From NCBI RefSeq assembly GCF_001428105.1, contig NZ_LMSJ01000058.1:1-64000 (forward strand): DNA of 64,000 bases, read 5' to 3'. Source of the stretch: Paenibacillus sp. Soil766 (GTDB lineage: Bacteria > Bacillota > Bacilli > Paenibacillales > NBRC-103111). Shown here one piece after another: positions 38,376-56,747 of the stretch. Below the pieces are notes generated by a model. That model searched no databases. It saw only the letters and a program-made list of their open reading frames with translations, and was not told the DNA's origin. The stretch's first letter is position 1; each line of letters opens with the position of its first letter. The position numbers and the translations under genes are program-made.

Positions 38376-39120
38376 GTTCGCTTCCCTCCCCCTCAAACGT
38401 ATGGCTTTGATATAAAAACTCCAAAATACCTCGGTTATACTCGAGTTCCATGAAGTATCGCTGCACAACCACTTTGGCCTTTTCGGTCAATGTAATTTCT
38501 TGATTGCCAATATCGATCACCAGTTCTTGCGCGATGAGAAACTTGCGGACAGAATCCATGAAGCTGACCCGGCTAATCGTATTCCCGCTTTGCTTCGCGG
38601 CCGTTTCCTTAATATCGTCCATGGCACTCCATTTTTCGATCAGGGCTGTCCAGTTATAGGAGAATTCCTTCTCCATCTCTTTTAATTCCGCTTCTGGATG
38701 TGTCTTCAATAGGGAAATACGCTCATTCACAAGCGCCGTCCACTCTTCAATCCCAATAAAACTTCTCGTCGGCTCCATCGTTTGGTAACTATCATAGAAG
38801 GCACCAATAAGTACGATAATGCTGACATACATCAAATAAAGATCCGCATTCACGGCGTTCGCCCGCAGATAAGTCCGTTTAATCACTTCGTTATTCATAT
38901 GAAAAGGCGATAGCCTAGTCTCCGGAATCATATACAGTTGTTCGCCAGCAATAATCGTTACACAATCGACTTCACGCGCAAATTGATCCACAAGTCCGCG
39001 TACCACATCGTCTGCCATGTAGGCTTGAAGCCACTCTTTCCCTACCTCGTTATCACGCGCGAGCAAGGTGTAAATCCGAAAAGCCTTCATTACCGTTCCA
39101 TTTTCAAGTCCGATTGTCAT
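38359..39120 (-). CDS. jetB: Wadjet JetB, MksE-like subunit
   Basis: A 253-residue subunit of the Wadjet SMC complex. It is predicted helical with an acidic middle and a C-terminal winged-helix-like part (NTISRVSFMDSVRKFLIAQE, ELVIDIGNQEITLTEKAKVV), as in the MksE/MukE (KITE) family. KITE subunits bind the kleisin (JetA) next to the SMC heads. The start lies behind GGGGAGAACAGG and overlaps the jetA stop by 17 bases, so translation is coupled. Recognition rests on operon position and the size and fold type more than on clear residues. Confidence 0.82.
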   Translation of the reverse strand: MTIGLENGTVMKAFRIYTLLARDNEVGKEWLQAYMADDVVRGLVDQFAREVDCVTIIAGEQLYMIPETRLSPFHMNNEVIKRTYLRANAVNADLYLMYVSIIVLIGAFYDSYQTMEPTRSFIGIEEWTALVNERISLLKTHPEAELKEMEKEFSYNWTALIEKWSAMDDIKETAAKQSGNTISRVSFMDSVRKFLIAQELVIDIGNQEITLTEKAKVVVQRYFMELEYNRGILEFLYQSHTFEGEGSEHASDL

Positions 39121-40630: not shown

Positions 40631-41664
40631 GCTGTGTGCCTCCAAATCCTGCAAAGCTCGTGTGATGGAAGTATCTCTTGGGGGAAATAGCCTCCTGATG
40701 CTAGACACTGGTTAATTATCTTCCGTTCTTCCTCCGTAAAATGAGAGGTAAAAGTTTGCAAGGCCTGCTCATGACTACGCTGGTATTCTTTTCCTTTTGC
40801 AAATTTTCTGCTCAGACATGCTCTGTAAAAAGGAAAGGCCAATTTAGCTGGTCTACCAAAAAGTTTAATCACCTGCTCATTAAGTAGATGCCATATGTGA
40901 ATACCTTTTTTATCGATATCGCCAAAATAATAGAATTCATGCACAGGATCCTTAAGCGGAAGCTGCATTGACAGCAGCTCAATGCTCTTCGTTATGCGAT
41001 AGCCTCCACCAAAAATTAGCGTTGCAAAAGGAACATCAGGCAATGCCTGCAGCAACGCTTGATACGTTGTTTTATTTTCAACAATTAGATGCCTATGGAC
41101 CTCATTCGTTAAACCATATGGATTCACAGCAAACATTAAGGGGTCATCAACGAGAAGAATAAGGAACTTGTCCCACAAACCTATTCGGGTCAGCAGCTCT
41201 CCTCCCCGCTTCTCTGTTATCCATTTCTCATCTGCAACAAGCTCGAAGCTTCGCTCTGGTGCCGGTACTGGGGTAGTTGGAAGCATATACTCCTTCAAAT
41301 AAGTGTCGATCATTGCAATGTAAAGCTTATCTTGCTCCCAAATTTCCGCTCCTAATGAATAATAGGCATCCAGTTGAATATCAGGATGCAGCAGCATTCT
41401 GGCCTGATGGATGTCCTTGTGCGTATCTACTTTTAACCGATTCTTCTGCACGCTATATTGATAGGCAAGGGATGGTCGTTTACCCGTTCTCCCCTTGCTC
41501 TGAACCATCTGAATGATCTTCTCAGCTTCAAGCTCAAGTACTGACTGAGCGAATTGTTCGTAAGTACATGGTTGGCCATCGAATAGTGCATATAATTCGT
41601 CAATAGAAACTTTAACTTTCTTTAATGATAGTAAGTGCGTACGTATACGCGAATTGAAATTCAT
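40618..41664 (-). CDS. jetD: Wadjet JetD, toprim nuclease subunit
   Basis: A 348-residue protein, the first gene of the operon. The N-terminal half (about 1-150) is the DNA-binding arm (DUF3322-like) and the C-terminal half is a topoisomerase-VI-like toprim domain (DUF2220-like). Visible metal-site residues are Glu196 in IVENKTTY, the glycine loop IFGGGYR near 219, and the Asp pair in YYFGDIDKKG (about 249 and 251). In Wadjet the JetD nuclease cuts circular DNA extruded by JetABC, so small plasmids are destroyed. AGGAG precedes the ATG. The order jetD-A-B-C differs from the B. cereus type I order. Confidence 0.9.
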   Translation of the reverse strand: MNFNSRIRTHLLSLKKVKVSIDELYALFDGQPCTYEQFAQSVLELEAEKIIQMVQSKGRTGKRPSLAYQYSVQKNRLKVDTHKDIHQARMLLHPDIQLDAYYSLGAEIWEQDKLYIAMIDTYLKEYMLPTTPVPAPERSFELVADEKWITEKRGGELLTRIGLWDKFLILLVDDPLMFAVNPYGLTNEVHRHLIVENKTTYQALLQALPDVPFATLIFGGGYRITKSIELLSMQLPLKDPVHEFYYFGDIDKKGIHIWHLLNEQVIKLFGRPAKLAFPFYRACLSRKFAKGKEYQRSHEQALQTFTSHFTEEERKIINQCLASGGYFPQEILPSHELCRIWRHTAWTT

Positions 41665-41971: not shown

Positions 41972-42253
41972 TTACTTCTCGCCAGGAAATAAAAGAGCAA
42001 CAATGTTGCATACGTCATCTACTTGCTCAATATAGATTCTAAATTTTTTGACCACTATACGGGTTATTCCTCTGTATTCACCAAACTCCTCCGTATAGGC
42101 CTTGCCAATTATCGGATTCTTCAAGTAATCTTCAACTTCCAAAACAACCTGAGAAATGAAATCAAATGTTTCTTCCGGAGTAAACCGTTCACTGCGAAAC
42201 TGAATTAGCTTTGCCCTAACAGTAGGGAGCCATATGATCGAGCGATTATTCAT
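41972..42253 (-). CDS. Type II toxin, RelE/ParE-like
   Basis: A 93-residue protein of the RelE/ParE fold. It begins SIIWLPTVRAKLIQFRSERF, then TPEETFDFISQVVLEVEDYL and KNPIIGKAY, and ends in YRGITRIVVKKFRIYIEQVD followed by VCNIVALLFPGEK. The last part is the usual conserved core strand pattern of the toxin family (R-x-x-V-x-x-x-Y-R-I-x-Y). It lies one base from the end of the antitoxin frame, in the order antitoxin then toxin. RelE members cleave mRNA and ParE members poison gyrase; which one applies cannot be told. Confidence 0.8.
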   Translation of the reverse strand: MNNRSIIWLPTVRAKLIQFRSERFTPEETFDFISQVVLEVEDYLKNPIIGKAYTEEFGEYRGITRIVVKKFRIYIEQVDDVCNIVALLFPGEK

Positions 42254-42519
42254 TATGCAAAATCCTTAGGTGACAATGATTTCAAAAGCTCCGTAGTCGA
42301 CATTCCCTTACCTTGTTTATATTCTTCACGGCTTCCAGTAATCATGTTCTTAAGTTCTGGATTCGCTGTAACTTCAGAACTAATGGAAAGATGATCTTCC
42401 TCTTGAAGAACAACCGTAAATTTTCCTTTTCCAGGAATAAGAAATTGACGAACTGAATGCTCACTACTCATATTGATGATAGTGTTCATAAGTTCTTCGG
42501 AGCTATTTACTTTTTCCAT
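42253..42519 (-). CDS. Antitoxin for the RelE/ParE-like toxin
   Basis: An 88-residue acidic protein directly upstream of the toxin, overlapping its start by one base. The C-terminal EEYKQGKGMSTTELLKSL looks like a toxin-binding arm, seen in many antitoxins as an xYKxGKGxS-type tail. The N-terminal part (SEELMNTIINMSSEHSVRQF, then VVLQEEDHLSISSEV) is beta-helix mixed. It would neutralise the toxin and repress the operon. The chosen ATG has AGGTGG nearby; an upstream start four codons earlier is possible. Confidence 0.75.
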   Translation of the reverse strand: MEKVNSSEELMNTIINMSSEHSVRQFLIPGKGKFTVVLQEEDHLSISSEVTANPELKNMITGSREEYKQGKGMSTTELLKSLSPKDFA

Positions 42520-42692
42520 TACGATCACCACCTATCCTCTTGTTCATTTATTATAACATTAATTTCTTCACAAAAACATTCACTCACAATTCACCACATA
42601 TCCCCCGCACACTTGAATATATTTAATAACAAGCTTTATTTCCCTATGTCTGATTAGCGTCTGCTTATCATAAACGCCAAGGAGGTGTCCCC

Positions 42693-43850
42693 ATGACAGA
42701 GCCCTTATTTATCGTTTCCAAAGAGGATTGGTCACTCCACCGCAAAGGATACCAAGATCAAAACAGACATCAAGAGAAGGTCAAAGATGCCATTAAACAG
42801 AACCTTCCTGATCTGGTTACAGACGAAAGCATTGTCATGTCCAATGGAAAACAAGTCGTGAAGGTACCGATAAAAAGCTTGGACGAATACCGCTTCCGCT
42901 ACAACTTCAACAAAGGCAAGCATGTCGGTCAAGGCGACGGCGATTCGCAGGTTGGCGATGTGCTGGGCACAGACCCGCAGCCTGCACAAGGCCCAGGTAA
43001 AGGCGAAGGCGCTGGTGATCAAGCCGGCGATGATTATTACGAAGCCGAAGTGAGTATGGAAGAGCTGCAAGCGATGCTGTTCTCGGAGCTCGAGCTGCCG
43101 AATTTGCAGCAAAAAGAGAAGCGGAACATGACGTCCACCGAAGTGATTTTCAACGATATCCGCAAAAAAGGGATCATGTCCAACATCGACAAGAAGCGGA
43201 CGATCCTCGAAAACATGCGCCGCAATTCGCGAGGCAGCTCACCGGGCATCCATCATATTTCACCAGATGATTTGCGTTTCAAAACATGGGAGGAAATCGA
43301 AAAACCGCACTCCAATGCGCTTATCATTGCCATGATGGATACCTCTGGTTCCATGGGCTCCTTCGAGAAATACATAGCCCGCAGCTTCTTCTTCTGGATG
43401 ACCCGCTTCCTGCGCACGAAATATGAGAACGTTGAAATTGTGTTCATCGCGCATCATACCGAGGCTAAAGAGGTCACAGAGGAAGAGTTTTTCACAAAAG
43501 GCGAGAGCGGCGGCACGATCTGTTCTTCGGCCTATCAAACCGCGATTGATATTATTGATAAAAGGTACCCCCCTTCTCAGTTCAATATTTATCCGTTTCA
43601 TTTCTCGGACGGGGATAATTTAACTTCCGATAACGAGCGCTGTGTGAAGCTGATTACACAATTAATGGAGCGCTCGAACATGTTCGGCTACGGGGAAGTG
43701 AATCAATATAACCGCAGTTCTACACTTATGTCCGCATTCCGTCATATCAACAATCCGAAATTCCTACATTACGTCATCCGTGAAAAAGGTGAAGTATATA
43801 AAGCGTTAAAAACCTTTTTTACCAAACAGGAAGGAGTGCCTGTACAGTGA
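42693..43850 (+). CDS. yhbH: YhbH, sporulation-linked VWA protein
   Basis: A 385-residue protein of the YeaH/YhbH family. The N-terminal part is charged and contains a Gly/Gln/Asp-rich segment near 85-115. The C-terminal half is a von Willebrand A domain whose MIDAS motif reads [13 protein letters not shown] near residue 217. In B. subtilis YhbH is needed for normal sporulation, and in enterobacteria the homologue YeaH is linked to the PrkA kinase. AGGAGGTG precedes the ATG. Its stop overlaps the GTG start of spoVR by three bases, so the two are coupled. No prkA is next to it here. Confidence 0.93.
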
Positions 43851-45280
43851 GTAAATCCGAAATCCAGAAGCTGGAATATGCCATTGATGAAATCACGGAG
43901 ATCGCGAAGGGCTTTGGGCTCGACTTCTTTCCCATGCGGTACGAAATTTGTCCAGCAGAAATTATCTATACCTTCGGTGCCTACGGAATGCCGACACGCT
44001 ACAGTCACTGGAGCTTTGGCAAAAATTTTCATCGCATGAAAACGCAGTACGATTTTGGACTTAGTAAAATTTACGAATTGGTCATCAATTCGGACCCGTG
44101 CTACGCCTTCCTTTTAGACGGAAATTCGCTGATTCAAAATAAATTGATCGTCGCGCACGTGCTTGCCCACTGCGACTTTTTCAAAAATAACGCACGCTTC
44201 TCCAAAACAAATCGCAATATGGTCGAGAGCATGTCCGCTACGGCTGAACGCATCCGCCAATATGAAATTGAGCATGGGATCGATGAGGTTGAACAATTCA
44301 TAGATGCTGTCCTTGCCATTCAAGAGCACATTGACCCTGTACTCACGCTAACGTATGGCCAGTCTCGCAAACGCCAAGAAAATAACAAAGCGGCTGCACC
44401 AGCGGCGCGGTCGGAAGCCACCTACGGGTATGAGGATTTATGGGACTTAGATAGCCGAAACAAGGCTGCTGTCTCCTTGGATAAAGTAGATACGAAGCGC
44501 TTTCCGCCGAAGCCCGAGAAGGATCTCCTTCTTTTTATCGAGGAACATGCCCCTTATATGGAAGATTGGCAACGGGATATTCTGACCATGCTTCGCGATG
44601 AAATGCTCTACTTCTGGCCGCAGCTCGAAACCAAAATCATGAACGAAGGCTGGGCTTCGTACTGGCATCAACACATCCTGCGCGAAATGGATTTGACCGA
44701 GGAAGAAACGATTGAGTACTCCAAACTGAACTCCTCTGTCGTCGTTCCCTCTCGCCATTCTTTAAATCCCTATTATTTAGGTGTCAAAATATTTGAAGAC
44801 ATCGAGAAGCGCTGGGATGCACCGACCGATGAGGAAATCCGCAAATTCGGGCGGACACCTGGGCAAGGCAGGAAGAAAATCTTTGAGGTTCGCGAATATG
44901 AATCCGACACCTCATTTATCCGCAATTATTTGAATAAACCATTGGTTGAAGAGTTAGACCTATATGTGTTTGAGAAGAAAGGTCCTGAGTGGAAGATCAC
45001 GGACAAAACGTGGGAAAATACGCGAGATCAGCTCATTTACTCCAGAGTAAACGGTGGTTTCCCTTACATCGTTGTTGAGGATGGTGACTATCAGCGTAAC
45101 GGGGAGTTGTATTTGAAGCACGCTTATGAAAGCGTGGAGCTGGATTTGAAGTATGTCGAGCGGACACTGCCGTATATTTATAAGCTGTGGGGTAAGACCA
45201 TTCATATGCATACGATGGTGGAGGATAAGCCGGTGTTGTTTAGCTTTGATGGGAAGAAGCATCATCGGAGGTTTTTGTGA
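43847..45280 (+). CDS. spoVR: SpoVR family protein
   Basis: A 477-residue soluble protein of the SpoVR/YcgB family, required for proper spore cortex formation in Bacillus. Typical blocks are [24 protein letters not shown] [74 protein letters not shown] and [20 protein letters not shown]. The start is GTG, coupled to the yhbH stop. The pair yhbH-spoVR sits at an unusual place, between a toxin-antitoxin operon and the decayed copies described at 45454-45912. A terminator follows. Confidence 0.95.
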
Positions 45281-45332
45281 GAGAAAGCCTACCTTTGTAG
45301 GGGAGATCATTATAATTCGCTTACACAATATG

Positions 45333-45379
45333 TAAAAAGGACCATTGGGGTTCACGGATTACCCAGTGGTTCTTTTTCA
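45333..45379 (+). terminator. Terminator of spoVR
   Basis: GGACCATTGGG pairs imperfectly with CCCAGTGGTTC, followed by TTTTTC on the plus strand. Confidence 0.65.
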
Positions 45380-45453
45380 ACTCAAATATTTCATTCATTT
45401 AAAAAACTGACTCATTTAGTAATCGATTCATGATCAACAGTTAAGATTGTGTT

Positions 45454-45793
45454 TCATGCCGCCGATCTTGAACGAGGACTCACGTATAGCTCACCGTTAT
45501 CTAGCAGCTTGTAGGATACGACATATCGGTCCTCCATGTAATAATAGGTGTCGTGCTATTCGCGAGAGAGCATCATTATCCCTATTTGAACGACCTTTTG
45601 CTCCACTCGCCGAATAATTAATCTTATATACGCTTGTTTCCTGCACGCTGTAATGATCGCTTTTGAATTTCTCGGAATCGATTTCCCGCCGTTTCGGTCC
45701 ATTGCACAATCAATTACAGTTCACCACGCTCTATCTCTTCAACCATCTCTTCAGTGGAATAAACTTTCCCTTGCTTCATGTCTTGCTCGGACA
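45454..45793 (-). pseudogene. Decayed RelE/ParE toxin-antitoxin module
   Basis: On the minus strand an antitoxin tail (45714-45793, LSEQDMKQGKVYSTEEMVEE then IERGEL) abuts a toxin frame that starts at TTG (IVQWTETAGNRFREIQ). The toxin reading then jumps frame to KSDHYSVQETSVYKINYSA and again to DTYYYMEDRYVVSYKLLDNG, with an in-frame stop before the last piece. Each piece is family-like, so this is a broken gene pair and not a working one. Its order and strand mirror the intact pair at 41972-42519, although it is not the same family member. Confidence 0.7.
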
Positions 45794-45912
45794 GATATTA
45801 TCTACCCTTCGGTGCTTATTGGATGCCGACTCGCTTTAGCCATTGAAGCTTCGGTAAGACGTTCAACATAACTTAGATAAATTTACTAGTTGGTCATTCC
45901 ATTAACGGATTG
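45780..45912 (+). pseudogene. Decayed spoVR fragment
   Basis: This plus-strand stretch aligns with the intact spoVR at about 43947-44095, with blocks ATTATCTA, CCTTCGGTGC, ATGCCGAC, and TTGGTCATTC/TTGGTCATCA. It has a gap of about 25-30 bases near its middle and a TGA where the intact gene reads TGG. It is therefore an old remnant, not a recent copy. Confidence 0.85.
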
Positions 45913-46001
45913 TGGGAGAGCTGGATTTAATAGTTTGAAAAAAGGTGTAAAACCCTTATATGTAATTAAATAGGAATAAAAAACCATTCTAAATATTGTA
46001 T
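45913..46001. other. Short intergenic stretch
   Basis: I see nothing here other than AT-rich sequence at the end of the dynamin operon. Confidence 0.4.
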
Positions 46002-47186
46002 CTAGGAATAGTTATCCAAAATATCGATTGCCTCTTGAATCATTAATAAATGTTTTGAAAAGGAAGACACTAGCAAACGGTAATGCTCCATTTTGAATTG
46101 ACCAAGTAACCCTTTCTCCCATTGCTCTAAGGTTTGCTTAACAATTTTCTCACTCACATGTATCATATACTTCCTAAGTGTCATACCGCTTACATTCGGC
46201 AACGGCACCACGTTAAACTGCATCATAAAATATCGTTGGTACTGCTTGACTGCTTCCCGGACCTGCTTCTTCCGCTGTTCTATGGCGTGCTGTTTCGTTA
46301 ATACACCTAGTAGGACCGTAGCAGCAACAGCAAATATAGCGATAGGTGGAAAAACGTTCATCAAGGCATAGGTTATTGTATGCCAACCCGCCGCCAGCCC
46401 AAGCGTTCCGACCACTGCCGATCCCATGCCTACCATAAAGGCTTGTTCAGAGACTCCCATTTTAAAATCGATAGAGATGGAATCATTGGCTTGCTTGGCC
46501 AAATTAAAGGCAGACAGTCGCTCTATATCCGGTACCTGATTTTGAATATGGGCTTTCCAATCTTCTTGATACTGCTCTCCTGCCTGTGACATTAGAGCGC
46601 TCATTTCCTTACCTACTTGTTGCGGCTTTAAGAACTGCTCCATGACCCGTTCTACTACCGTTCGATCATCGATGACCGAATCCTGTTGCGATAATTTGGA
46701 CCCAGTTATTTCTTTACTTGCTTCATTCGCCTTCTTTACAACCCAATTGACTACACTCCCCGCTTTTTTAGCGGTATCGCGTATGCCTGTATACCATTCG
46801 CCATCTTTTTCAACTTCTTTGCACATGGATTTCTCTTTGGCCAAAAAATAAACGTCCATTTTTTCATATAAGTTATCAAAAAAGGACTCAACACTTTCCG
46901 GAACGTACTGCCATAGCTGTTTCTCCCGAAAAGTCATCTGCTCACAGATGTTTAAATATTGGCTGGCCATGGCTTGAATCGTGATTTGTTCCTGCAGCAA
47001 AACTACGAGTTTTTGCTGGTTATGGGAATTCGGATCGGTTAGAACAACGTGGAACTTGTCAATTGATGCTTTTAAGGATTGTTCAATATTATTCGCTAAG
47101 CTTTCATCAATTTCTTTTAATTGCCGAAAGGTATCTTGAAACGCAATCAATCCAATAATCGGCTCTAGTACCCGGTATTTGCTCAT
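46002..47186 (-). CDS. GTPase-less dynamin-like membrane partner
   Basis: A 394-residue protein, last gene of the six-gene operon. It is helical (coiled-coil-like from about 15-215) and has a hydrophobic hairpin near 250-300 (QAFMVGMGSAVVGTLGLAAG, ALMNVFPPIAIFAVAATVLL), then further helices to the C-terminus. This layout looks like the stalk and membrane paddle of a bacterial dynamin, but there is no P-loop, so it has no GTPase domain. I infer it is a membrane partner for the GTPases upstream. GGAGG precedes the ATG; the 289-residue gene ends 16 bases before it. Confidence 0.72.
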   Translation of the reverse strand: MSKYRVLEPIIGLIAFQDTFRQLKEIDESLANNIEQSLKASIDKFHVVLTDPNSHNQQKLVVLLQEQITIQAMASQYLNICEQMTFREKQLWQYVPESVESFFDNLYEKMDVYFLAKEKSMCKEVEKDGEWYTGIRDTAKKAGSVVNWVVKKANEASKEITGSKLSQQDSVIDDRTVVERVMEQFLKPQQVGKEMSALMSQAGEQYQEDWKAHIQNQVPDIERLSAFNLAKQANDSISIDFKMGVSEQAFMVGMGSAVVGTLGLAAGWHTITYALMNVFPPIAIFAVAATVLLGVLTKQHAIEQRKKQVREAVKQYQRYFMMQFNVVPLPNVSGMTLRKYMIHVSEKIVKQTLEQWEKGLLGQFKMEHYRLLVSSFSKHLLMIQEAIDILDNYS

Positions 47187-47202
47187 TAGTCAGCCTCCAA
47201 CT

Positions 47203-48072
47203 TTAAGGTTGTAGAATCATGTGACGAAGTGTTCGTTTTGCCGGCGCGACTAGTTCCTGCACTCGTTTGAACGCTTTATCAGGATTATCAAGCGTATACT
47301 TTACCGCTACAGCTGTGCCAATTGCTGCTAAACAGCCAATCCATACGGGTCCACCTATTAAGGTACCCACAGCTAAAGCACTTCCTGAAACGATTGTTCC
47401 CTTCCCTGCTTGAACAAGACTCTTCTTCTTGTCCTCTGACTTGTACAATGAATAAACAAGTCCACCTGCAGCAATAGGTAGCAGGACTGGATTAGCTGAG
47501 GCAATGGATGAGACAAGATAAGACCCCGCCAAGTTAGATATACGGCTCGGATCCCCTTTTTTCCCTAAAATCAGACTTCCCAATAAAGCTATAGATCCAC
47601 CTAATAGCTCAGGACTGTTAATCGTCAAGGCATCAGCAAGGAACGGCTTTGAAATTCCTATCTGCTGCAAGGAATCGGCTATTCGATCGAATTGATGCTG
47701 GGTAAATGATAAAAATGGATTAATCCCACTTACAGATGCTGTATCACGAAGGAGATGTTCCGCTGCCTGTGAAAGCTCCGTAACAAACGAATCATCCGAG
47801 CTAACATCTTTCACCGCTTGTAAAGAGCCTAGGAAGCTATGTTGTCCGTCCAACAAGTGATGGTACTGTGAGCCGCCGATATGGGTGGAATTATAAACAG
47901 AATCGATTGCTTTGTCATATGCGTCAAAGTTATGGTTGAACTCCTGGGCCATCCACTGTGCCATTGAATGGCTTCCTATAGTCAAACCTGCATCCAATGG
48001 AGCAAATGTCTTGTCAACTGAGGGTAGATCTAACTCAAATCTGCGCATTCTTCTTTTTTGGTGCGAATTCAT
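47203..48072 (-). CDS. Hydrophobic protein of the dynamin operon
   Basis: A 289-residue protein I do not recognise. It has a basic N-terminus (MNSHQKRRMRRFELDL), a helical middle, and three or four hydrophobic segments in the second half (SPELLGGSIALLGSLILG, PVLLPIAAGGLVYSLY, IVSGSALAVGTLIGGPVWIG, CLAAIGTAVAVKY), the last two rich in Gly and Ala. No GTPase motif is visible. A strong AAGGAG precedes the ATG. The gap to the GTPase upstream is 142 bases and holds a hairpin, so expression may be adjusted between them. It is probably a membrane component of the same complex. Confidence 0.7.
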   Translation of the reverse strand: MNSHQKRRMRRFELDLPSVDKTFAPLDAGLTIGSHSMAQWMAQEFNHNFDAYDKAIDSVYNSTHIGGSQYHHLLDGQHSFLGSLQAVKDVSSDDSFVTELSQAAEHLLRDTASVSGINPFLSFTQHQFDRIADSLQQIGISKPFLADALTINSPELLGGSIALLGSLILGKKGDPSRISNLAGSYLVSSIASANPVLLPIAAGGLVYSLYKSEDKKKSLVQAGKGTIVSGSALAVGTLIGGPVWIGCLAAIGTAVAVKYTLDNPDKAFKRVQELVAPAKRTLRHMILQP

Positions 48073-48118
48073 AGAGCAGCTCCTTTAACAAAATCTATTC
48101 TCAAGAAAAATAGAGATA

Positions 48119-48156
48119 AAAGAGTCTTCAGTTCTATAAGAAAAGAAGGCTCTCTC
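48119..48156 (-). terminator. Hairpin inside the dynamin operon
   Basis: On the minus strand AGAGCCTTC pairs with GAAGACTCT followed by TTTT. It lies between the third GTPase and the next gene and could reduce downstream expression. Confidence 0.55.
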
Positions 48157-48214
48157 ATTCTATTTTTACGATTTTCTCGTCGGACACTCCAAACAAGACG
48201 TTTGCAAGATTATA

Positions 48215-50464
48215 TTATATAACCATTTTATTAAAATTCTCGATATCCTGCTTAAGAAGGGCCAGCACCTCTTCGTATTTTCGCATTTCCTGATCCCGGT
48301 TCTGAATGCTCTTCTGCAGTTTGTTACGCTTCGCTTCCGACTCCTTCAGCACATCGTTGATGAAATCGGAGCTGATTTCTTGAAGAGAGTGCTCCACCTC
48401 GCGCAGCTTAAGATTCATTTTATCTGTTGTATCATTCAGAATCACATCAGTTTGTTCATAGAATAGCTGTTTCAGTTTCTCGACGTCACCACCTTCTACC
48501 TTACCCATACCGAATTTATCTGTAATCCGCTTCCGATAAACACCACTATCCAGATCAAAAGTAGGTAGTGATATCTTATTGATTGTCTTCTGGACCGGTA
48601 CGATGACTTCATTGAAATCGAAGCTCTCGTCTGAAAGATCATGGATCCGCAACATAGCCGTTTTCAGATCATTGACGAGCTTCTCCAGGTTCATGATCTC
48701 ATCATAAGAACTTTTCAAGCCTTTCTCCAGTTCAATCGCAAAATCTGCCACCTGATCAATAGTCTGGTGGACGTTCGCATAAGAATAAGTTCGGTTTTCG
48801 TAAACGTCACGGCTCTTGAGCCATAGAAATCCGTATCTTTCTGACTTGACGAATTCGCGTCGAGACTCCTTCGACTCTTGGAAACGACGATAATTTTGGG
48901 CGATGCTTTTGAATTCTGTTTGAAGTTCGTTGAATTTCTTTTTGACCTTAGTAATAAAGTTATCAAAAATCAAATCCACTTCTTTACGGGCCCGCTCCAT
49001 CGTCATTACAACGGCCTTATATGTTTTTTCGATATCCTCACCCGAGGATTCACTAATTAACCTCAGGTCATTCCGCAGCTCGTCCATCAAATTTGATAGT
49101 TGCTTGATAAATGCATCCTGCTGTGCCATGAGTAAATGGCCGAAGCGATTCTTCAAGATCTCTTCCTTCCGACTTTGCACCTCTGGAATACGTACGTCGC
49201 GTATCTGCTCGATATTGGACAATCCGATGAGCAGTTCTGGTGTGAGCTTGTCAGTGGCGAACGTCCCCTGCAGCAACTTCAGTACATGCTGTTGCTCGTT
49301 TGACAGATTCTGCATATGTTTCCCAATTGTATACGCCATGGATGACACAAAGATCGGCGGCATGCTGTTTCTCAAACTTTGCATAATCGGATTGTCCGGA
49401 TACATTCGAATCATTGGCATAATAGTATTTTCAGCTTGAGATTGCAATTTATCCGTAATGTATTTTAATGCATGCCGAAGAGACGGATATTTATTGCCAT
49501 CGCCATACAAGACAAGATCGAATTTGCTGCCTACAAGTAAGATATTGACTATCCCTTTGTCCGGAATATTCTGGGTCAACAGCTCCACATCTACCGAATC
49601 CATGAACTGTGAGGTATAACTTAATAGGAAGACAACGTCGCACTGCCCTAGATAATCCCTTGTCCGCTGCCCACGCGACAGAATCGGATCATTAATCCCC
49701 GGTGTATCTACAATATCCATGTGTTGGAGTGATTCGTCAGGGATGTACAGTATGGTGCTTTTTACAATTGGCGTAAATTTCCCTTCCGCCCCGACATATT
49801 GCTGCAGCTCGCCGATGAGTTGACTTGTCTCCTGCATCTCAGCGAGCTCTATTGTCGTACCCAGGTAATCATCAATGCGTAGTCCGCCTTGTTGAACAGA
49901 CAGGACAAGCTCATGAGCAGCTTTAAGCTCGTCGGGCGCATTCAACATTGCAATGATTTCCTGGTGCGATAGCTTCCGTTCCTTTTTCATTGTCATTTCC
50001 TTAACTCTTCTGCCAATCCTCGCTATGCCGCCAGTTGGCTCTTCAGACAGCTTTTCCCTCATTCGATCGATTAGCTCCTGGAGCTTTTTAGCCTTGCTGT
50101 GAATGACGTCCCACTCTTCCCGGGTGAAAAACTCAATCTCCGCTCTAGGCGAATCGGCATAGGTAATTACGGTGAGAGCTGCCGTCATCGGTGTGGATGC
50201 CTTTGGCAAGACATCCTTTCCGTCGAAGAGTAGCGCATTAAGAAAGGAGGATTTGCCCGCCTTGATCTGACCGACAACACCAATTTTCAACTTCCTATTC
50301 TCCTCAAGCACATACTCCGCATCTTTACGAAAAGAACTCGAGAATTCAGCGATGGTATGGTAATGATCAAGTCCAAGCACATCCTGGTGCACCTTGTATT
50401 TGTCTGTGATATTTTCAAACAGCCGAATATACTTGCTGATTGTCTCTAGGTTTTGAGTTTTCAC
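48215..50464 (-). CDS. Dynamin-like GTPase, 749 residues
   Basis: A large bacterial dynamin-like GTPase. G1 is GVVGQIKAGKSS (about 65-73), the G2 threonine lies in ASTPMTAALT, G3 is DTPGINDP (about 253-260), and G4 is GSKFDLV (about 312). Between G2 and G3 is a 150-residue insert (RMREKLSEEPTGGIARIGRR and on). The C-terminal half is long coiled-coil (KKKFNELQTEFKSIAQNYRR, ELEKGLKSSYDEIMNLEKLV). Bacterial dynamins fuse or tubulate membranes. The start is GTG behind AGGAG; it overlaps the upstream GTPase stop by 50 bases, so the genes are tightly coupled. Confidence 0.9.
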   Translation of the reverse strand: MKTQNLETISKYIRLFENITDKYKVHQDVLGLDHYHTIAEFSSSFRKDAEYVLEENRKLKIGVVGQIKAGKSSFLNALLFDGKDVLPKASTPMTAALTVITYADSPRAEIEFFTREEWDVIHSKAKKLQELIDRMREKLSEEPTGGIARIGRRVKEMTMKKERKLSHQEIIAMLNAPDELKAAHELVLSVQQGGLRIDDYLGTTIELAEMQETSQLIGELQQYVGAEGKFTPIVKSTILYIPDESLQHMDIVDTPGINDPILSRGQRTRDYLGQCDVVFLLSYTSQFMDSVDVELLTQNIPDKGIVNILLVGSKFDLVLYGDGNKYPSLRHALKYITDKLQSQAENTIMPMIRMYPDNPIMQSLRNSMPPIFVSSMAYTIGKHMQNLSNEQQHVLKLLQGTFATDKLTPELLIGLSNIEQIRDVRIPEVQSRKEEILKNRFGHLLMAQQDAFIKQLSNLMDELRNDLRLISESSGEDIEKTYKAVVMTMERARKEVDLIFDNFITKVKKKFNELQTEFKSIAQNYRRFQESKESRREFVKSERYGFLWLKSRDVYENRTYSYANVHQTIDQVADFAIELEKGLKSSYDEIMNLEKLVNDLKTAMLRIHDLSDESFDFNEVIVPVQKTINKISLPTFDLDSGVYRKRITDKFGMGKVEGGDVEKLKQLFYEQTDVILNDTTDKMNLKLREVEHSLQEISSDFINDVLKESEAKRNKLQKSIQNRDQEMRKYEEVLALLKQDIENFNKMVI

Positions 50465-52385
50465 GTTCAGTCTCCTCGGTAGATAATTGTTCTAACAGAG
50501 CCGATCTACAAGCCTCATCTAAAGCCGATGCAGTTTTGACGGCGTAGGTCTGCAGCTCCTTACGAAGTAAGTGCTGCAGTAACGGCAGCCCTTGCACAGG
50601 CAGGTTGTATTGCATAAGTTCAGGAGGAAGGAGAAGCTCGTAAACAGGCTCTCTTGTGGACAATATGGATTCCTTCATTATGTTGGTCAATAACTTGAGC
50701 TCTTCGTGCAAAAGAAGACGAGTCTCTGGTCCAACAGGGTAGGTTGGAATATCAGAAAACAGCTCCATTGAAACTACATCTATCCGCTTCAAGACAGATT
50801 CGCGGATGGATTCGGCCAACAGCATTGATTGACTGCTGAATGCCACACTCATATCTCTGGCATCAATCCGATAGCTGCGAATCTTAAGCATCTCTTCCAG
50901 TTGAAAGCGAAAGCTCTCGAATAGACTCGCAGTGGTTTTTTTCCGGGCAAACATATGCTCCAACCGGCTTAACAACTGCTCCTGGAGCTCTAGCTTTACC
51001 GGTAGTTCCCCAGTCTCCATTTGGTCGATGAGAGGTTGGATATCCTGCTCAAGCAGCGACTCTGTTTGGAGTTCCAGAAAACGTAAGATGAATTTCTTCC
51101 GATAAGCCGTCTTCTCCTCTTGAATTAGCTTTTCAATCAGAAGTGGCGTCTTTATCATCAGCTGGATACCTGTTAACATGACCAGATACGGCTCAAGTCT
51201 ATCGTTATACGCACTGACATTAGTTGTATGCGTGGCAATCGATGCCCTCTGCTCCGCAATAAGACGGACAAGCAGCTCCCTTTCTGTATTGTTGGAAGCG
51301 AAAACTGCACGATGGTTAAGCTCCTTCAATGATTGCCTTGCTGTCATTACGGCATCGTTTGCAGCCTTTTTGTATATGTCTGCCAACTCCCGGAATTCAT
51401 CTGTCCAATCAACAATACGCTTTTTGCCCTTCGCTAGTTTTTTCAAATGTGCTCCCAATTTATCAGGAGCGTATTCCTTTTTGAGCTTAGAAGAATACGC
51501 CGCCACACCGCTGCAGGCGATACCACGATCCTTAAGCGTTTTTTTTACAGTGTTAATTACCCGCTTGATCTCTTCCGGCAGCTTGACATCAGCTTTGTTC
51601 AAGACGATAAATAGCTCGCTATTCGGCTCCAGGCTCTGAAGAAATCGGATATCATCTTCAGGTATGACACCCTTCTCGATATCGATAACCCAGATAATCG
51701 CATCAGCAAGGTTTAGAGCAGCGCGGGCGACTGACTCGTCACGATCAGCTTCACTTTTATGCTGATCGGATCTAGAGTATCCCGGCGTGTCGAGCACAAC
51801 ATAAGGAAATCCTTTGCCTATCTTAGCCCTAATCAGCAAATGTTGAATCAAAGGAGCCAGATTCAAACGGTACTTTTGAGCGAAAGCATGCGTAAGAGCC
51901 CCTACAGCCTCCTCATCCAAAATAGCTGTGCTACCATAAACATTAACTACCTTACAGATCGTCCGACTGTCCGACATGATGTAGGTAGGTACCGATGTTG
52001 TTGGTGTCGTATCTACAGGAAGAATATCCTGACCAATAATGGAATTGATCAAATGTGATTTGCCCGCGCTGAAGCCGCCACCTATCGCCACCAACAGCTT
52101 CCCCGCCACTTCTGGCACTTCGATCCACTGGCCAAGCCGTTCGCAAAGCTCTAGGAGCTGGGGATAGACCTCCTCACAGACTGGATATGAATATGTCCGG
52201 AATTCCTGCAGAAATTGCCACTGCAGCCGCTCTTTAAAATCAATATAAGCCTGCTGACTCGCAGTTTGTTGGTCCGACCGGTTTACCAACTCAGAAATAA
52301 GTCGGATTCCTAAGTCCCGATCGGAGATATATCGGTTCAGCGGATCGAAGTCCTCTAGATCATCAAGTTCATCCCATATGGACAA
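50415..52385 (-). CDS. Dynamin-like GTPase, 656 residues
   Basis: A second and distinct dynamin-like GTPase. G1 is AIGGGFSAGKSHLINS (about 101-115), G3 is VVLDTPGYSRSDQHK (about 197-210) and G4 is FIVLNKADVKLP (about 259-270). A helical stalk follows (about 330-640). No obvious membrane hairpin is visible, unlike the 550-residue partner. The start is TTG with AGAGGAA upstream. Its start overlaps the stop of the previous GTPase gene by 17 bases. Tandem GTPases of different sequence suggest hetero-oligomer formation. Confidence 0.88.
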   Translation of the reverse strand: MSIWDELDDLEDFDPLNRYISDRDLGIRLISELVNRSDQQTASQQAYIDFKERLQWQFLQEFRTYSYPVCEEVYPQLLELCERLGQWIEVPEVAGKLLVAIGGGFSAGKSHLINSIIGQDILPVDTTPTTSVPTYIMSDSRTICKVVNVYGSTAILDEEAVGALTHAFAQKYRLNLAPLIQHLLIRAKIGKGFPYVVLDTPGYSRSDQHKSEADRDESVARAALNLADAIIWVIDIEKGVIPEDDIRFLQSLEPNSELFIVLNKADVKLPEEIKRVINTVKKTLKDRGIACSGVAAYSSKLKKEYAPDKLGAHLKKLAKGKKRIVDWTDEFRELADIYKKAANDAVMTARQSLKELNHRAVFASNNTERELLVRLIAEQRASIATHTTNVSAYNDRLEPYLVMLTGIQLMIKTPLLIEKLIQEEKTAYRKKFILRFLELQTESLLEQDIQPLIDQMETGELPVKLELQEQLLSRLEHMFARKKTTASLFESFRFQLEEMLKIRSYRIDARDMSVAFSSQSMLLAESIRESVLKRIDVVSMELFSDIPTYPVGPETRLLLHEELKLLTNIMKESILSTREPVYELLLPPELMQYNLPVQGLPLLQHLLRKELQTYAVKTASALDEACRSALLEQLSTEETERENSKPRDNQQVYSAV

Positions 52386-54021
52386 GAATATTCCTCTTCT
52401 CTACGATCTGATTTCGAATCACTTCTAACTCTTCAATCGTTTCCTTCAGATTATTCAGGAATTGATCGTCGTTCTCTTTAGCTTCCCACTTGTCCTGCTT
52501 GGCTTGTTCCAGAGACGCTTTAACATCAGTCTGCCGCTGTGCAAGATCACTCTGCATTTGCTGCATGAACTGTTGATTGACTTCCTCCAATGAACGAATA
52601 ATTTCCGGCTGCAGCTTCTCTAGAATTTCCGGTATGACGTTAGCTTCCAGATGCTCGCGAATCCGCTTCTCCTGATTCATAAACAACTTGATAATATCAG
52701 GTGCGAAGAATAGCAATACCTCCAGCCAAGGTGCAACGATCGCCGTCAGGATCGCTACACCGCCGATCATCGCCCGGAATGCTGGATTAGAAATCGTATC
52801 TACGAATTTCTCTAGGTAATGGCCTTCCGATTGCTCGAACGAAGAAAGTTCTAGTAATTCCTCAATTTCAATGTTCTTTCGGTTAATCTTTTCGTAACTA
52901 TTGCTGAGAACAGCGCTCACACGGCTCTCGATGGAATGAACAAGTACTGGACGCAAAATTTGGTTTAATGTCTTCTTAAATGGCTCTGCACCGCCTTTGA
53001 CCGAACGGGTCAACGTCTCCAGATTGTCCATTAGCGCAAGACGGACGTCATCCTGAATTTCCGTCACCGTCTGGTACCCAAAGGTCTGAGCGATGTTGCG
53101 GGACTCGGCTTCTACTTCGTTCTCGAGGTGTATCAAGCTTCGTTCAAACCGTTTTATTTTCTCTTCGATCTCAGCAATGTCGAGCGTATGGTGCTTGTAA
53201 CGGATCTGAAGATCGCGATATACGCGGTCTACTGCTTCCAGTGCTTTCGGCTCCAAATGCTTAACCAGCAATTCCGGCTGATTCAAGGATGCCAGTGTAT
53301 GGTGAAAAGAATCAATATTCCCGGTTTTCGCAGAAACATGACCTACATCTATCGTATATCCAGCAAGATTTTCTGCTGTTTGGGCGGCCAACTTGATGAT
53401 ACTTTCCAAATCAGAAGGTAGCTTCTGGTCCGATTTAGAAATGAGGATGGAGCAATCCATCTCATACACGTTCAGTTCCTTAAGAAAATCAAGCACCGAG
53501 TCCTTCAAGCCATATTCCGACTCAGTGAGGACGAGATAGTAGACGCCATTCCGGATGTAAGACAATATCGCATTATTGTGTTCTTGCAAAGCGGAGTCAA
53601 TGCCAGGCATATCGACAAGCACGATATTGTTCAGCTCTTGAAGAGCATCAGAACGTAAATAGACGTGAATATGGGAGAAATCTTTTGATGTAATTGATTT
53701 GATAGACTCCAGCTCAAATGATTCCATCTCTCCATTTTTCTTAAAACCTACGATATGCTCGTGCGTACCATAGCGCAGTTCAGCGGCAATTGCAGTCTCG
53801 GGCAAGAAATCGGTTGGCAGCACATCACGCTGCAGGAAAGTATTGAGCAACGTACTTTTTCCAGCGTTAAAGGTACCGATTAGTGGAACGAGAATACGGA
53901 AATTGATAATTTCAGCTTCAGTTAATTCATTTTGCTCCAGAATGTGGGGAGCTACTTGGTTTTGCAATCCCTTTTCTTTCACTTGTTCCAGTAAACTTAT
54001 TAGATTTTCACGGTAATTCAT
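52369..54021 (-). CDS. Dynamin-like GTPase, 550 residues
   Basis: A third dynamin-like GTPase, more typical in layout. G1 is LIGTFNAGKSTLLNT (about 48-62), the G2 threonine lies in LPETAIAA, G3 is VDMPGIDSALQEHN (about 136-149) and G4 is ISKSDQKLP (about 194). A hydrophobic hairpin follows near 408-442 (NPAFRAMIGGVAILTAIVAP, WLEVLLFFAPDIIKLF), as in membrane paddles of bacterial dynamins, then a coiled-coil end. GAAGGAG precedes the ATG. It follows the ATPase gene by 59 bases. Confidence 0.9.
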   Translation of the reverse strand: MNYRENLISLLEQVKEKGLQNQVAPHILEQNELTEAEIINFRILVPLIGTFNAGKSTLLNTFLQRDVLPTDFLPETAIAAELRYGTHEHIVGFKKNGEMESFELESIKSITSKDFSHIHVYLRSDALQELNNIVLVDMPGIDSALQEHNNAILSYIRNGVYYLVLTESEYGLKDSVLDFLKELNVYEMDCSILISKSDQKLPSDLESIIKLAAQTAENLAGYTIDVGHVSAKTGNIDSFHHTLASLNQPELLVKHLEPKALEAVDRVYRDLQIRYKHHTLDIAEIEEKIKRFERSLIHLENEVEAESRNIAQTFGYQTVTEIQDDVRLALMDNLETLTRSVKGGAEPFKKTLNQILRPVLVHSIESRVSAVLSNSYEKINRKNIEIEELLELSSFEQSEGHYLEKFVDTISNPAFRAMIGGVAILTAIVAPWLEVLLFFAPDIIKLFMNQEKRIREHLEANVIPEILEKLQPEIIRSLEEVNQQFMQQMQSDLAQRQTDVKASLEQAKQDKWEAKENDDQFLNNLKETIEELEVIRNQIVEKRNILVHMG

Positions 54022-54080
54022 ATTAATCGACTCCTTCTATTCATTGTATTTCAGGTAAATAAGTTGGCTATGTACTGAAC

Positions 54081-56144
54081 TCATGCTCTTCTTTCTTTTG
54101 TGTTGAGCAGCACCGGAGGTCCGTATTTCATATCCAGTAGCGCTAAGTACCACTTGACGAAAGAACGTATCAAAGTATTTCCGGCCATCCCATTGTTTTG
54201 TAAGAGCTGGTTTACGCTTCTAGCGAGCGTCGAATCAAAAGATTCGCACAGATCATAGGAATCAGCGTACAATTCAAAGATTCTGGACGCTAGTTCAATC
54301 GTTTGATGATCCGTCCACTGACTCAACCTGTAGACGCTGCCTCCTGCTAATGCCGTGAGGCGCTCCAAGAAAGCATCTCCTGCCGTTGCCTTTCCCACCG
54401 CAGAGAAGATTAATGTCACCGGTGAGGGCGGAATCAACCCGCTTTGCTCTACGTAAGTCAGTATTTCCCTAAGTAAAGCCAGCACACGTTCAAACTGTTT
54501 CTTATCCCCATGTGTCTCCACTTCGAATTCGTCAAACGCCACAACCAGACCATCATAACCGGATAGACGGCAAAGAATTGCAAGACCCGCCAACGCTTCC
54601 AAGAATGAATGCGTCCGCTTGTCCAAGCTTCTGTCGATCAACGACTCAATCTGAAACTGTGATTGCCTCAAGCCTGTTTCCACTGCGATATCATGGATTA
54701 GGCTCCGTATCGGGAATTCCTCTCCTCCCGAAAAGACGGATTCCAGCTGAAATGCGAAGTTGTCTAGCTTCCCGAAACGCTGCAATAGCTGAATCGTCTC
54801 GAAGTAATCTTTAATTTTGTACATGCCGCTCGAGGGAAAAGAAAGGACATTATGCCCTCGCTCAATGGCCTTTTCATATAGTGAGATGACAGGGCTCTCA
54901 TTCGCACCATCCGGAAACTGAAGGTTTCTACAGATGGCGCGGAAGAGCAGGTTCGGTTCACTCATACTTACACTACGTCCGTCGAGCTCAACCCTGGTAA
55001 AGACAGAACCCCTTTTACTGGCGGTATGTCGTAGGACTTCAATCACATGGCTTTTGCCCGTGCCAAACGGTCCGGTGATCAAATGGATGCCAGGCAAGTT
55101 AAGATCAGAACGGCATTGTTCTGCCCATCTTTCAATTTCAGCGTAACCAATCGTTAGCCGTTCTACATGTCTATGAGGAACTAGGCCAAAACGGAGGGAT
55201 TCCAGCGATTTTAGCACTGACATATCACCGTTTAAACCGAAATACGGCTCCCATGACTCCACCTTCTCATTAGTCAATTGGTCCAGTGAGGCGATCGGGA
55301 ACCGCCATGCGGCCCTCCTCAAGCCATTCTTTACGATCTGAAGCCGTTGGCCTACTGCGGGATAAACATCCGCACACCGTTCAAGGAAACCCTTTCGGCT
55401 AACAGTAAATACGAGCGTGCCGTTCAGAACACCCGTCGTGCATCCGTCTATCAACCGACGAATGACATTGGCGGAAATACGGAGCTTCTCCAAAGCAGTT
55501 GACTGCTTGTTATAGACGAAATGGTCCTCCTGTTCGGTCAGAAGGAGTAGGGAACCCGAGGCATTTAGCATTGTTAAGGCAGAGAATACCGTTTGCAGAA
55601 TCAACTCAGCATTCTTCTGAGTAAGTGAGCCCTTGACACCGTTCAGTCCGAAACTATTAAGCTCAGCCACCGAAACCTTCTCTCCCAGTAAAAAAGATTG
55701 AAGCGCTTCGTCCTGAGCTAAGCCTTGCTGTTCCTTCTGGCATAACCACCAAATCGCATTCCTAAATCCGGCATGCGGTAGCGAGTGATCCTTCTGAAGC
55801 AACATCTCCAGCTCCACTTCACCAACTTCAGCTATTTTGGCAACAATCGCAGGGAACGACCTAACCAGAATGCCATTGATGTTGGCCTCCATATTTTTCA
55901 ATACATACTGCGTAATCTGTTTCCAATCGTTTAACGGTAGGTCGTTTGAAAGTTCCACCTCGGTGACTACCAGGCCTTTCCAAAGCGCAAGTTGTCTGAT
56001 CGATTGAGTTAACACACCCCGTCGCTCTGCATGATCCCCCTCCACAAAACGACATGTCGCCCCTCCTCTGGATACATAAGCATCAATAAGTTCCTGCTCT
56101 ACATACTTAAGGTACGAGCTAAAGGCATTTTTTTTTGAGTCCAT
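54081..56144 (-). CDS. Double P-loop ATPase of the BREX/DUF2791 type
   Basis: A 687-residue protein, first gene of the dynamin operon. The second half (about 350-660) is an active ATPase: Walker A GPFGTGKSHVIEV (358-366), RVELDGRSVSMSEP downstream and Walker B LVVAFDEFEVE (about 535-541), matching the BREX-linked ATP-binding family (DUF2791/BrxC-like). The first half (about 20-230) has the same fold pattern but a ruined P-loop, FVEGDHAERRGVL in place of GxxGxGKS, and LLLLTEQED at the Walker B place. It is thus a tandem repeat with one dead unit. AGAGGAA precedes the ATG. It may act as a sensor or switch for the GTPases. Confidence 0.8.
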   Translation of the reverse strand: MDSKKNAFSSYLKYVEQELIDAYVSRGGATCRFVEGDHAERRGVLTQSIRQLALWKGLVVTEVELSNDLPLNDWKQITQYVLKNMEANINGILVRSFPAIVAKIAEVGEVELEMLLQKDHSLPHAGFRNAIWWLCQKEQQGLAQDEALQSFLLGEKVSVAELNSFGLNGVKGSLTQKNAELILQTVFSALTMLNASGSLLLLTEQEDHFVYNKQSTALEKLRISANVIRRLIDGCTTGVLNGTLVFTVSRKGFLERCADVYPAVGQRLQIVKNGLRRAAWRFPIASLDQLTNEKVESWEPYFGLNGDMSVLKSLESLRFGLVPHRHVERLTIGYAEIERWAEQCRSDLNLPGIHLITGPFGTGKSHVIEVLRHTASKRGSVFTRVELDGRSVSMSEPNLLFRAICRNLQFPDGANESPVISLYEKAIERGHNVLSFPSSGMYKIKDYFETIQLLQRFGKLDNFAFQLESVFSGGEEFPIRSLIHDIAVETGLRQSQFQIESLIDRSLDKRTHSFLEALAGLAILCRLSGYDGLVVAFDEFEVETHGDKKQFERVLALLREILTYVEQSGLIPPSPVTLIFSAVGKATAGDAFLERLTALAGGSVYRLSQWTDHQTIELASRIFELYADSYDLCESFDSTLARSVNQLLQNNGMAGNTLIRSFVKWYLALLDMKYGPPVLLNTKERRA

Positions 56145-56747
56145 AGTCGCATTCCTCTTTTAGTTATATCAAATATTTTTCACAACTCACCAAGCAAAGA
56201 GTCTTCTTCCAAAACTCTTTACACCTTCCCACGCACTAACAGCAGTGCGCTTTACAGAGTCCCAAGTATCTCAAACAATTTCTTTAGCAACCGTTCTTAC
56301 TTTTCGATTACTTATCCTCAAGCTCTGATTTCCATCATTTTTATATCCTATCAAATTTAATATATATCATACAAAGATGGGACAAAGGATGAAAAAAAAA
56401 GCATTCTAGCACAGGAAAGTAATCTATTTCGACATAGATTTACCGAATTCCTCCATTTTAGGAACACAAGTAGTTCATTAGGCTTATTACCAAAACCCCA
56501 AATTCAGCAGTACTTTCTATAGCACTTCTGATCTACGCACTTGTAGGTGAAAAGCAAATATACGCCGTTACCGGCGCTTCCAGATAATAATCTTGTATTT
56601 GGGGTCATTATTGTAGGAGAGAATAAGGTTAGGATGGTTGATATGTTACTATTATCCTCAACACACTATTCTTCGATTAAATGTTTGACAACCTCCTTCT
56701 TTGCATTCGCATAGCGATGTCAATGGCTTGAAAAAAGGAAATCTCGC
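56145..56747. other. Gene-free stretch before the YjfB-like gene
   Basis: A 600-base gap upstream of both the dynamin operon and the YjfB-like gene. I find no frame with a ribosome binding site and recognisable content. It must hold the dynamin operon promoter, but I cannot place it. Confidence 0.4.

Follow-up and report, generated by a model that had tools for sequence, protein, structure and literature searches.

We analysed a block of six genes in a 64,000-nucleotide stretch of Paenibacillus sp. Soil766 (contig NZ_LMSJ01000058.1, positions 1 to 64,000), hereafter the window. Transcription runs on the minus strand from P0006 (687 amino acids, aa) through P0005 (550), P0004 (656), P0003 (749) and P0002 (289) to P0001 (394), that is, from a double ATPase through three dynamin-like GTPases, here called classes A, B and C, to two proteins with hydrophobic stretches. 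The block is an accessory insertion, and its three dynamins travel together in distant phyla. It has the following features.

46002-56144, minus strand: block of six open reading frames (ORFs), from the ORF calls
54081-56144, minus strand: P0006, fused double ATPase, 687 aa (BrxC_BrxD 6.4e-25; halves match two separate ATPases)
55215-56144, minus strand: P0006 N-lobe, aa 1-310, degenerate ATPase (Walker A and Walker B gone)
54084-55214, minus strand: P0006 C-lobe, aa 311-687 (Walker A GPFGTGKS and Walker B present)
52369-54021, minus strand: P0005, dynamin class A, 550 aa (Dynamin_N 4.6e-18; own supported clade)
52684-52782, minus strand: P0005 hydrophobic segment, aa 414-446, candidate membrane paddle (hydropathy)
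50415-52385, minus strand: P0004, dynamin class B, 656 aa (Dynamin_N 3.3e-17; own supported clade)
48215-50464, minus strand: P0003, dynamin class C, 749 aa (Dynamin_N 1.2e-21; PDB 5owv_A 1.4e-13; own supported clade)
47203-48072, minus strand: P0002, predicted all-helical, 289 aa, with hydrophobic stretch (189 homologues at E ≤ 1e-3; AlphaFold2)
47839-47862, minus strand: P0002 HHxxDxxH, aa 71-78, candidate metal or active site (invariant in 106 sequences)
46002-47186, minus strand: P0001, helical partner of P0002, 394 aa (homologue directly 3' of P0002 elsewhere)
46281-46442, minus strand: P0001 hydrophobic segment, aa 249-302, with near-invariant GLAAGWHT and FPP

The genes are as tightly packed as the original prediction from the DNA had it, with overlaps of 17 bases (52369-52385) and 50 bases (50415-50464), the latter if P0003 starts at the GTG at 50464. 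All six starts are preceded by a purine-rich, ribosome-binding-like stretch, and the TTG start of P0004 is echoed by its orthologue in G520, a Paenibacillus metagenome-assembled genome, which likewise begins LS.WD. Counting promoter-like sites (31 against a mean of 20.6 after shuffling) and terminator-like sites (12 against a mean of 10.7) did not lead to a clear result. The prediction of three dynamin-like GTPases was borne out as well: each protein matches Pfam Dynamin_N and has a complete GTPase (G) domain with intact G1, G3 and G4 motifs, by which P0003, P0004 and P0005 belong to the bacterial dynamin-like proteins. The best solved relatives by sequence of P0003 and P0005 are 5owv_A and 5owv_C (4.9e-7 for the latter); P0004 has GTPase Der as its top match (1.7e-8), followed by 5owv_C (2.7e-7).

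The trio recurs on plasmids. In a tblastn search of 72,556 plasmid records, P0004 matched 15, over 33-42% of the query on the G-domain side, and every one of these 15 also matched P0003 and P0005 at different positions within 7 kilobases (kb). P0003 and P0005 matched 22 and 18 records altogether; the remaining seven for P0003 (Ruegeria, Leisingera, Rhodobacter) and three for P0005 (Paenibacillus, Lysinibacillus) matched over only 20-35% of the query. Ten of the cassette plasmids are from Escherichia, two from P. aeruginosa, and one each from Calditerrivibrio, Photobacterium and Moraxella. The Escherichia plasmids are not independent, five being at least 99% identical over the cassette, and some have the class C gene annotated in pieces. 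In this near-identical form the cassette occurs in 5 of 5426 E. coli genomes, every copy plasmid-borne. All three dynamins also lie within 11 kb, in two convergent groups, in G623, a genome of the window's order. Each of the 11 dynamins tested by single-sequence search (from E. coli, Photobacterium, Moraxella and G623) matched a single one of the three window dynamins with a large lead over the other two.

We built a tree of 48 G domains, from which nine rows had been excluded: two that lack a G1 motif and seven, removed by hand, that were fragmentary or short. Clades A, B and C were each recovered as one side of a branch, with support of 96/92, 98/99 and 95/94; they span Bacillota, Pseudomonadota and Deferribacterota, and one member of each lies within ~11 kb in the window, in G520, in G623 and in the 15 plasmid records. 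The window and G520 are sisters in all three clades, as are P. aeruginosa and Calditerrivibrio, and Photobacterium and G623 are sisters in B and C and form no resolved pair in A. Several branches are long, and the Verrucomicrobiota dynamins and the source genome's own other dynamins are placed unsurely; these include a frame with a double dynamin match (C34), encoded elsewhere in the source genome, which falls outside clades A-C. Members score at least 447 bits with the cassette profiles (in sample) and the source genome's other dynamins at most 82, and a held-out class A protein from Moraxella scored 149.7 bits with profile A versus 26.1 with B. Given the co-location in 15 of 15 plasmid records and the parallel supported clades, the three dynamins are a mobile cassette, present together in distant phyla. 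The E. coli cassette has an extra gene for a CFI-box-CTERM protein; Calditerrivibrio has no obvious extra gene. In one E. coli plasmid (L090, 10366-12855), this terminal protein has 829 aa and no Pfam (E ≤ 0.001) or PADLOC match.

The whole block is an accessory insertion, not part of the core genome, because the same site is cleanly empty in three near relatives.

45290-56740, no strand: inserted block (accessory island), ~11.45 kb, directly after the SpoVR-like gene (alignment of L081, L083 and L085)
43847-45280, plus strand: SpoVR-like gene at the insertion border, neighbour (PF04293 3.3e-155)

In L081, L083 and L085 (genomes G043, G041 and G038), DNA identity with the window extends to 45289 and begins again from 56740/56741, with 35-67 bases in place of the block. 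These are three of five relatives examined; in L082 (G032) the match resumes only at 57344, and L084 (G039) has no left-side match in the stretch examined. P0005 is not matched at E ≤ 1e-20 in any of the five, and within the family it was matched in 1 of 104 genomes, the window's own, so that the normal core locus that the original prediction had allowed for is not what lies here. P0003 (E ≤ 1e-30) was found in at least 3 of 392 genomes of the order, every one of them with the full dynamin trio in the stretch examined, and the P0003-family profile (E ≤ 1e-40) in at least 1 of 398 genomes of the class, namely the window's own; both counts are lower bounds, with two candidates scored per genome. 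All six genes also occur in G520 (locus L019), on one strand in the order ATPase, P0002, P0001, P0005, P0004, P0003, and thus are not merely scattered elsewhere. Relative to the window the modules are reshuffled and the dynamin order is retained, and identities are 62% for P0002, 61% for P0003 and 38% for P0001. The dynamins of these two loci being sister copies, all six genes may have come together on a single occasion. Searches around the insertion found no tRNA in the window, no ORF of at least 80 aa wholly between the block genes and the block borders, and, between two border segments of 120 bases each, no exact match longer than 8 bases. A direct repeat of 17 bases, 15 of them shared by its two copies, at 56722-56738 at the right border and at 45929-45945, 640 bases inside the left border, may be due to chance.

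The "half-dead double ATPase" of the original prediction proved an apt description of P0006. ATPase A of loci L039 and L040 shares 41-43% identity with its N half, and ATPase C 37% with its C half; the separate ATPase A retains GAYGAGKT and LLFDENE, both of which the N half has lost. Because its halves match separate ATPases, P0006 is a fusion of two defence-type ATPases, one lobe having turned pseudo-ATPase. The PADLOC models BrxD (1.2e-16) and SngB (2.4e-10) also match P0006. In P0164, a metagenome relative, the N half likewise lacks Walker A, by eye. At least 18 proteins in a large protein collection match P0006, of which three cover at least 98%: the window's, that of G520 and one on a 94.7-kb metagenome contig. 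In the family, P0006 was matched at E ≤ 1e-5 in 4 of 104 genomes. L039 (8973-15688) and L040 (8522-15516) each contain, in this order, a gene of 267/288 aa (no Pfam match in L040), three BrxD-like ATPases and a BrxHI/SngC-like helicase. The runs of G044 and G090 consist of this 267/288-aa gene, ATPases A, B and C and the helicase; for G090, the ATPases were identified by matches to BrxD/SngB and the helicase by a match to BrxHI/SngC, and for G044 they were assigned by similarity. The L039/L040 run looks like a Shango/BREX-like operon unrecognised as a whole and like the source type of P0006.

The two hydrophobic partner proteins that had been predicted are P0001 and P0002, both of which have hydrophobic stretches and neither of which matches a Pfam family above the cut-off; below it, P0002 gives a C19orf12-like match (3.2e-4). 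Its homologues, among the 120 matches listed, are mostly 49-67% identical. Fourteen residues are invariant over 106 sequences, including H71, H72, D75, H78, H106 and D110, and these His and Asp residues look like a metal or active site. An AlphaFold2 model from the 106 sequences is all-helical, with a predicted local distance difference test (pLDDT) score of 89 and a predicted template modelling score of 0.78, and gave no credible match when searched against the PDB and viral structures. An earlier model from 38 sequences was poor (pLDDT 61), and the fold search on it was meaningless. With its candidate active site, P0002 gives access to a conserved family that is as yet uncharacterised.

Searching with the P0002 alignment yielded 24 genome loci (P0005 alone as query gave no relative). 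A P0001 homologue lies directly 3' of P0002 in 12 of them, and also in G076. P0002 was found in 5 of 392 genomes of the order and 1 of 398 of the phylum; in G1269 the match lies on a 3.3-kb contig, and the ~1.5 kb before it holds no dynamin. A 90% identical copy of P0001 on a 19-kb contig may mark another copy of the block. We also considered P0001 as a dynamin stalk without a G domain; its profile probability against the cassette dynamins was at most 2.4%, and the idea is unsupported. Its probability against the Verrucomicrobiota dynamin family F02 was 25.5% (E 7.5e-4), and P0001 matches the LeoBC model at 23.7 bits. In Neobacillus citreus (L026, 9947-11019), the P0002 frame is split in two and an intact P0001 gene follows. 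A 512-aa gene of G076 (L048, 6789-8327) without a Pfam match shares its first 4 bases or its last with P0001's end by overlap and is a possible third partner of the pair.

Relatives of P0002 stand beside other dynamins in Verrucomicrobiota and Lentisphaerota, where all ten P0002 loci carry dynamin families F02, F04 or F05. Dynamin_N was found in nine of the ten genomes; the tenth, G790, has no Dynamin_N match, and its locus (L029) has only a contig-edge fragment of F05. Dynamin_N was demonstrated for the four dynamins of L034, and two F02 members lack the G1 motif. These operons resemble the block in having a P0002 homologue downstream of up to four dynamins. However, the dynamins are not orthologous to A, B and C, P0001 and P0006 have no match there, and five of the ten loci encode LRAT-type proteins (Pfam demonstrated for L033). 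We rejected them as the same trio, their scores with the cassette profiles being at most 62 bits versus at least 447 for members (in sample). The arrangement of up to four dynamins with a P0002 homologue is seen in L027 and L030-L037 (Akkermansia, Opitutales, Spartobacteria, Lentisphaerota); L027 also encodes a DUF445 protein. The Akkermansia operons with P0002 in L029 (2842-3975) and L030 (3937-4980) have a P-loop protein (motif by eye) beside a small protein.

We compared the block with known systems. BREX partners BrxD with BrxC/PglY, PglX, PglZ, BrxL and BrxA, and Shango combines SngA, which carries a TerB domain, with SngB and SngC. P0006 alone of the six proteins strongly matches a BREX model, and the only Shango match among the six is the partial one of P0006 to SngB. 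P0006 thus shares with these systems its BrxD and SngB matches and lobes that match ATPases beside a BrxHI/SngC-like helicase, but it has two fused lobes, one of them dead, and the six genes include neither a helicase nor a TerB protein. Judged on gene content, the block is neither BREX nor Shango. It is likewise not Eleos by the features we tested. Eleos/LeoABC, from enterotoxigenic E. coli, also has adjacent dynamin genes, and the window and plasmid dynamins show weak similarity to the PADLOC LeoA and LeoBC models. However, LeoB and LeoC together make one dynamin (PMC4159319), so that Leo has two, whereas three complete GTPases are present here, and the model matches are partial. The window dynamins reach 15-29 bits over parts of the LeoA/LeoBC models with no full-length match; all Leo-model matches range from 15 to 43 bits and mostly cover a small part of the model, although two class C plasmid proteins match across 300 LeoBC positions.

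The best solved relatives by sequence, C. jejuni DLP1 and DLP2 (PDB 5owv), are also heterotypic dynamins. In the portions of the sources cited, they form a heterotypic tetramer that tethers membranes (PMC6104087; PMC6162298), and their cellular function is given as unknown (PMC6162298). They are a pair, not a trio, and these portions report no ATPase or P0002/P0001 partner. DynA of B. subtilis is a bacterial dynamin reported to delay phage lysis (PMC8844932), but it is one gene with two heads. A B. cereus-group survey puts Eleos and "Dynamins" into one defence type (PMC11811056), and on that grouping dynamin-based defence is the nearest known kind. Bacterial dynamins have hitherto been described as pairs or fusions; here there are three, related one to one between loci. 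The three-dynamin constitution and the dead-lobe ATPase are new here; among the top-listed results of searches in a mostly open-access literature, judged by title and start of abstract, we recognised no paper describing these genes as a set or a cassette of three dynamins.

The original prediction had taken the location beside Wadjet and toxin-antitoxin genes to suggest defence. JetABCD is real:

33945-41664, minus strand: Wadjet JetC/JetB/JetA/JetD, neighbour outside the block (PADLOC)

However, the argument from adjacency is weakened. L081 and L082 lack the block and contain Wadjet, at 87-88% DNA identity; the same holds for L083 up to the end of the stretch examined, and in the examined stretches of L084 and L085 Wadjet was not matched. 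Wadjet is thus older at the site, and the adjacency arose by later insertion of the block. The toxin-antitoxin genes could not be verified; two ORFs of 93 and 92 aa at 41972-42531 have no Pfam match (E ≤ 0.001). They adjoin each other between Wadjet and DUF444. Some relatives have defence genes nearby. The P. aeruginosa cassette has a WYL regulator directly upstream and ZorC/ZorD beyond it, and the G623 cassette is accompanied by a HerA-like ATPase, which also weakly matches TrwB, and a PDC-M26A-like gene. Near P0002 homologues, PADLOC matched 5 of 10 ORFs in a first set (DruE, HmaA, HmaB, a restriction-modification enzyme and WYL) and 4 of 10 in a second (mad3-like, HEC-06-like, PDC-M72A and a possibly generic kinase), and a PDC-M16A-like helicase adjoins L018.

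We consider the block most likely to be a mobile accessory module for defence against phages or mobile elements, with a hetero-oligomer of the three distinct dynamin-like GTPases as its core, and give this a probability of about one half. Defence is favoured by the patchy spread, the plasmid carriage, the Zorya/WYL context of one copy and the relatives of the ATPase. From the C. jejuni tetramer and the DynA phage-lysis delay we infer that A, B and C assemble into a hetero-oligomer with the inner membrane as its site. In such a scheme, P0006, of BrxD/Shango type with one live and one dead lobe, would sense infection or foreign DNA and license GTP-driven assembly of A, B and C on the inner membrane. 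Class A, with its hydrophobic segment, and class C, nearest to C. jejuni DLP1, would bind and tether the membrane, and class B would regulate. The P0002-P0001 pair might anchor the assembly in the membrane or modify lipid there; the LRAT and PLD associations make the pair possibly lipid-active, although NERD points to nucleases. The outcome could be sealing, constriction or delayed lysis, blocking phage entry or release. More tentatively, and as less likely than not, we can picture a horizontally spread immune machine composed of three obligate, distinct dynamins, a pseudo-ATPase/ATPase fusion of Shango/BREX-like origin that commands them and a P0002 that is lipid-acting or lipid-anchored where infection takes place; an equally doubtful analogy within that picture is a tripartite counterpart of mitofusin-like pairs.

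Several observations weigh against a dedicated six-gene defence machine. The proximity to Wadjet is weak evidence, for Wadjet is present in relatives lacking the block, and the defence-neighbour scans used hand-picked long ORFs, with no random sample and no random-locus control. P0001, P0002 and P0003 had no relative in viral contigs, and P0002 and P0003 none in phage records. Among the three dynamins, a hydrophobic segment above threshold occurs only in P0005 and in neither P0003 nor P0004. The deeper branching is discordant among the clades: A unites window and G520 with P. aeruginosa and Calditerrivibrio (98/91) and C does not, with weak support in B and C. The complete set is rare, with two complete loci (window and G520). 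P0001 and P0002 have no match in plasmid records, the cassette plasmids included, and in Bacillota the pair mostly occurs without dynamins; the six genes may therefore be a looser set than one machine. Of the predicted defence by membrane remodelling, then, the cassette, its mobility and the defence neighbours of some relatives stand, and defence itself would follow from them by inference.

That looser set could be two independent modules in one island, with the dynamin cassette serving one function and the P0002-P0001 pair another. This arrangement, compatible with the other readings, is possible, though we lean against it. Eleven of the 12 pair loci have no P0003-P0005 match in the stretch examined, and the plasmid cassettes lack the pair; however, the pair of G520 lies between ATPase and dynamins, all on one strand, and P0002 relatives adjoin other dynamins in all ten Verrucomicrobiota/Lentisphaerota loci. 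Membrane-stress repair, in which the dynamins would tether and reseal membranes damaged by antibiotics, peptides or lysins and would not sense phage specifically, is rather unlikely. A general repair function has been speculated for C. jejuni DLP1/2 (PMC6104087), but the patchy, plasmid-borne distribution, the copy beside ZorC/ZorD and WYL, and the kinship of P0006 with ATPases beside a BrxHI/SngC-like helicase speak against it.

We regard abortive infection as improbable, that is, triggered dynamins and P0002/P0001 damaging the host membrane and killing the cell. Such an effector would fit the fusion of P0001 homologues to PLD-like (P0141, P0162) and NERD (P0156) domains, the LRAT-type proteins of Akkermansia P0002 operons and the invariant HHxxDxxH of P0002, yet Pfam and PADLOC scans recognised no toxin family in the six proteins, and NERD would suggest nucleases and not lipids. 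More improbable still is a vesicle or secretion function, or a trait of plasmid maintenance or transfer. The cassette is plasmid-borne, in Photobacterium between TraU and TraN, and LeoABC has been tied to vesicle-associated secretion (PMC4159319); on the other hand, the window, G520 and G623 copies lie on long genome contigs, the cassette plasmids differ widely, and the few flanking genes scanned showed no recognisable transfer operon.

If the preferred reading of anti-phage or mobile-element defence is correct, the block would represent a new membrane-level branch of bacterial immunity, in which DNA-defence ATPases have been rewired to drive membrane machines. The occurrence of the three-dynamin cassette across phyla and on plasmids makes a three-way hetero-oligomer directly testable. 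The surrounding region also varies at a second place in G041: from the start of JetD to DUF444/SpoVR, L083 (4850-15321) differs from the window, with ~10 kb that include a 2287-aa S-layer-domain protein and a HupE-like protein.

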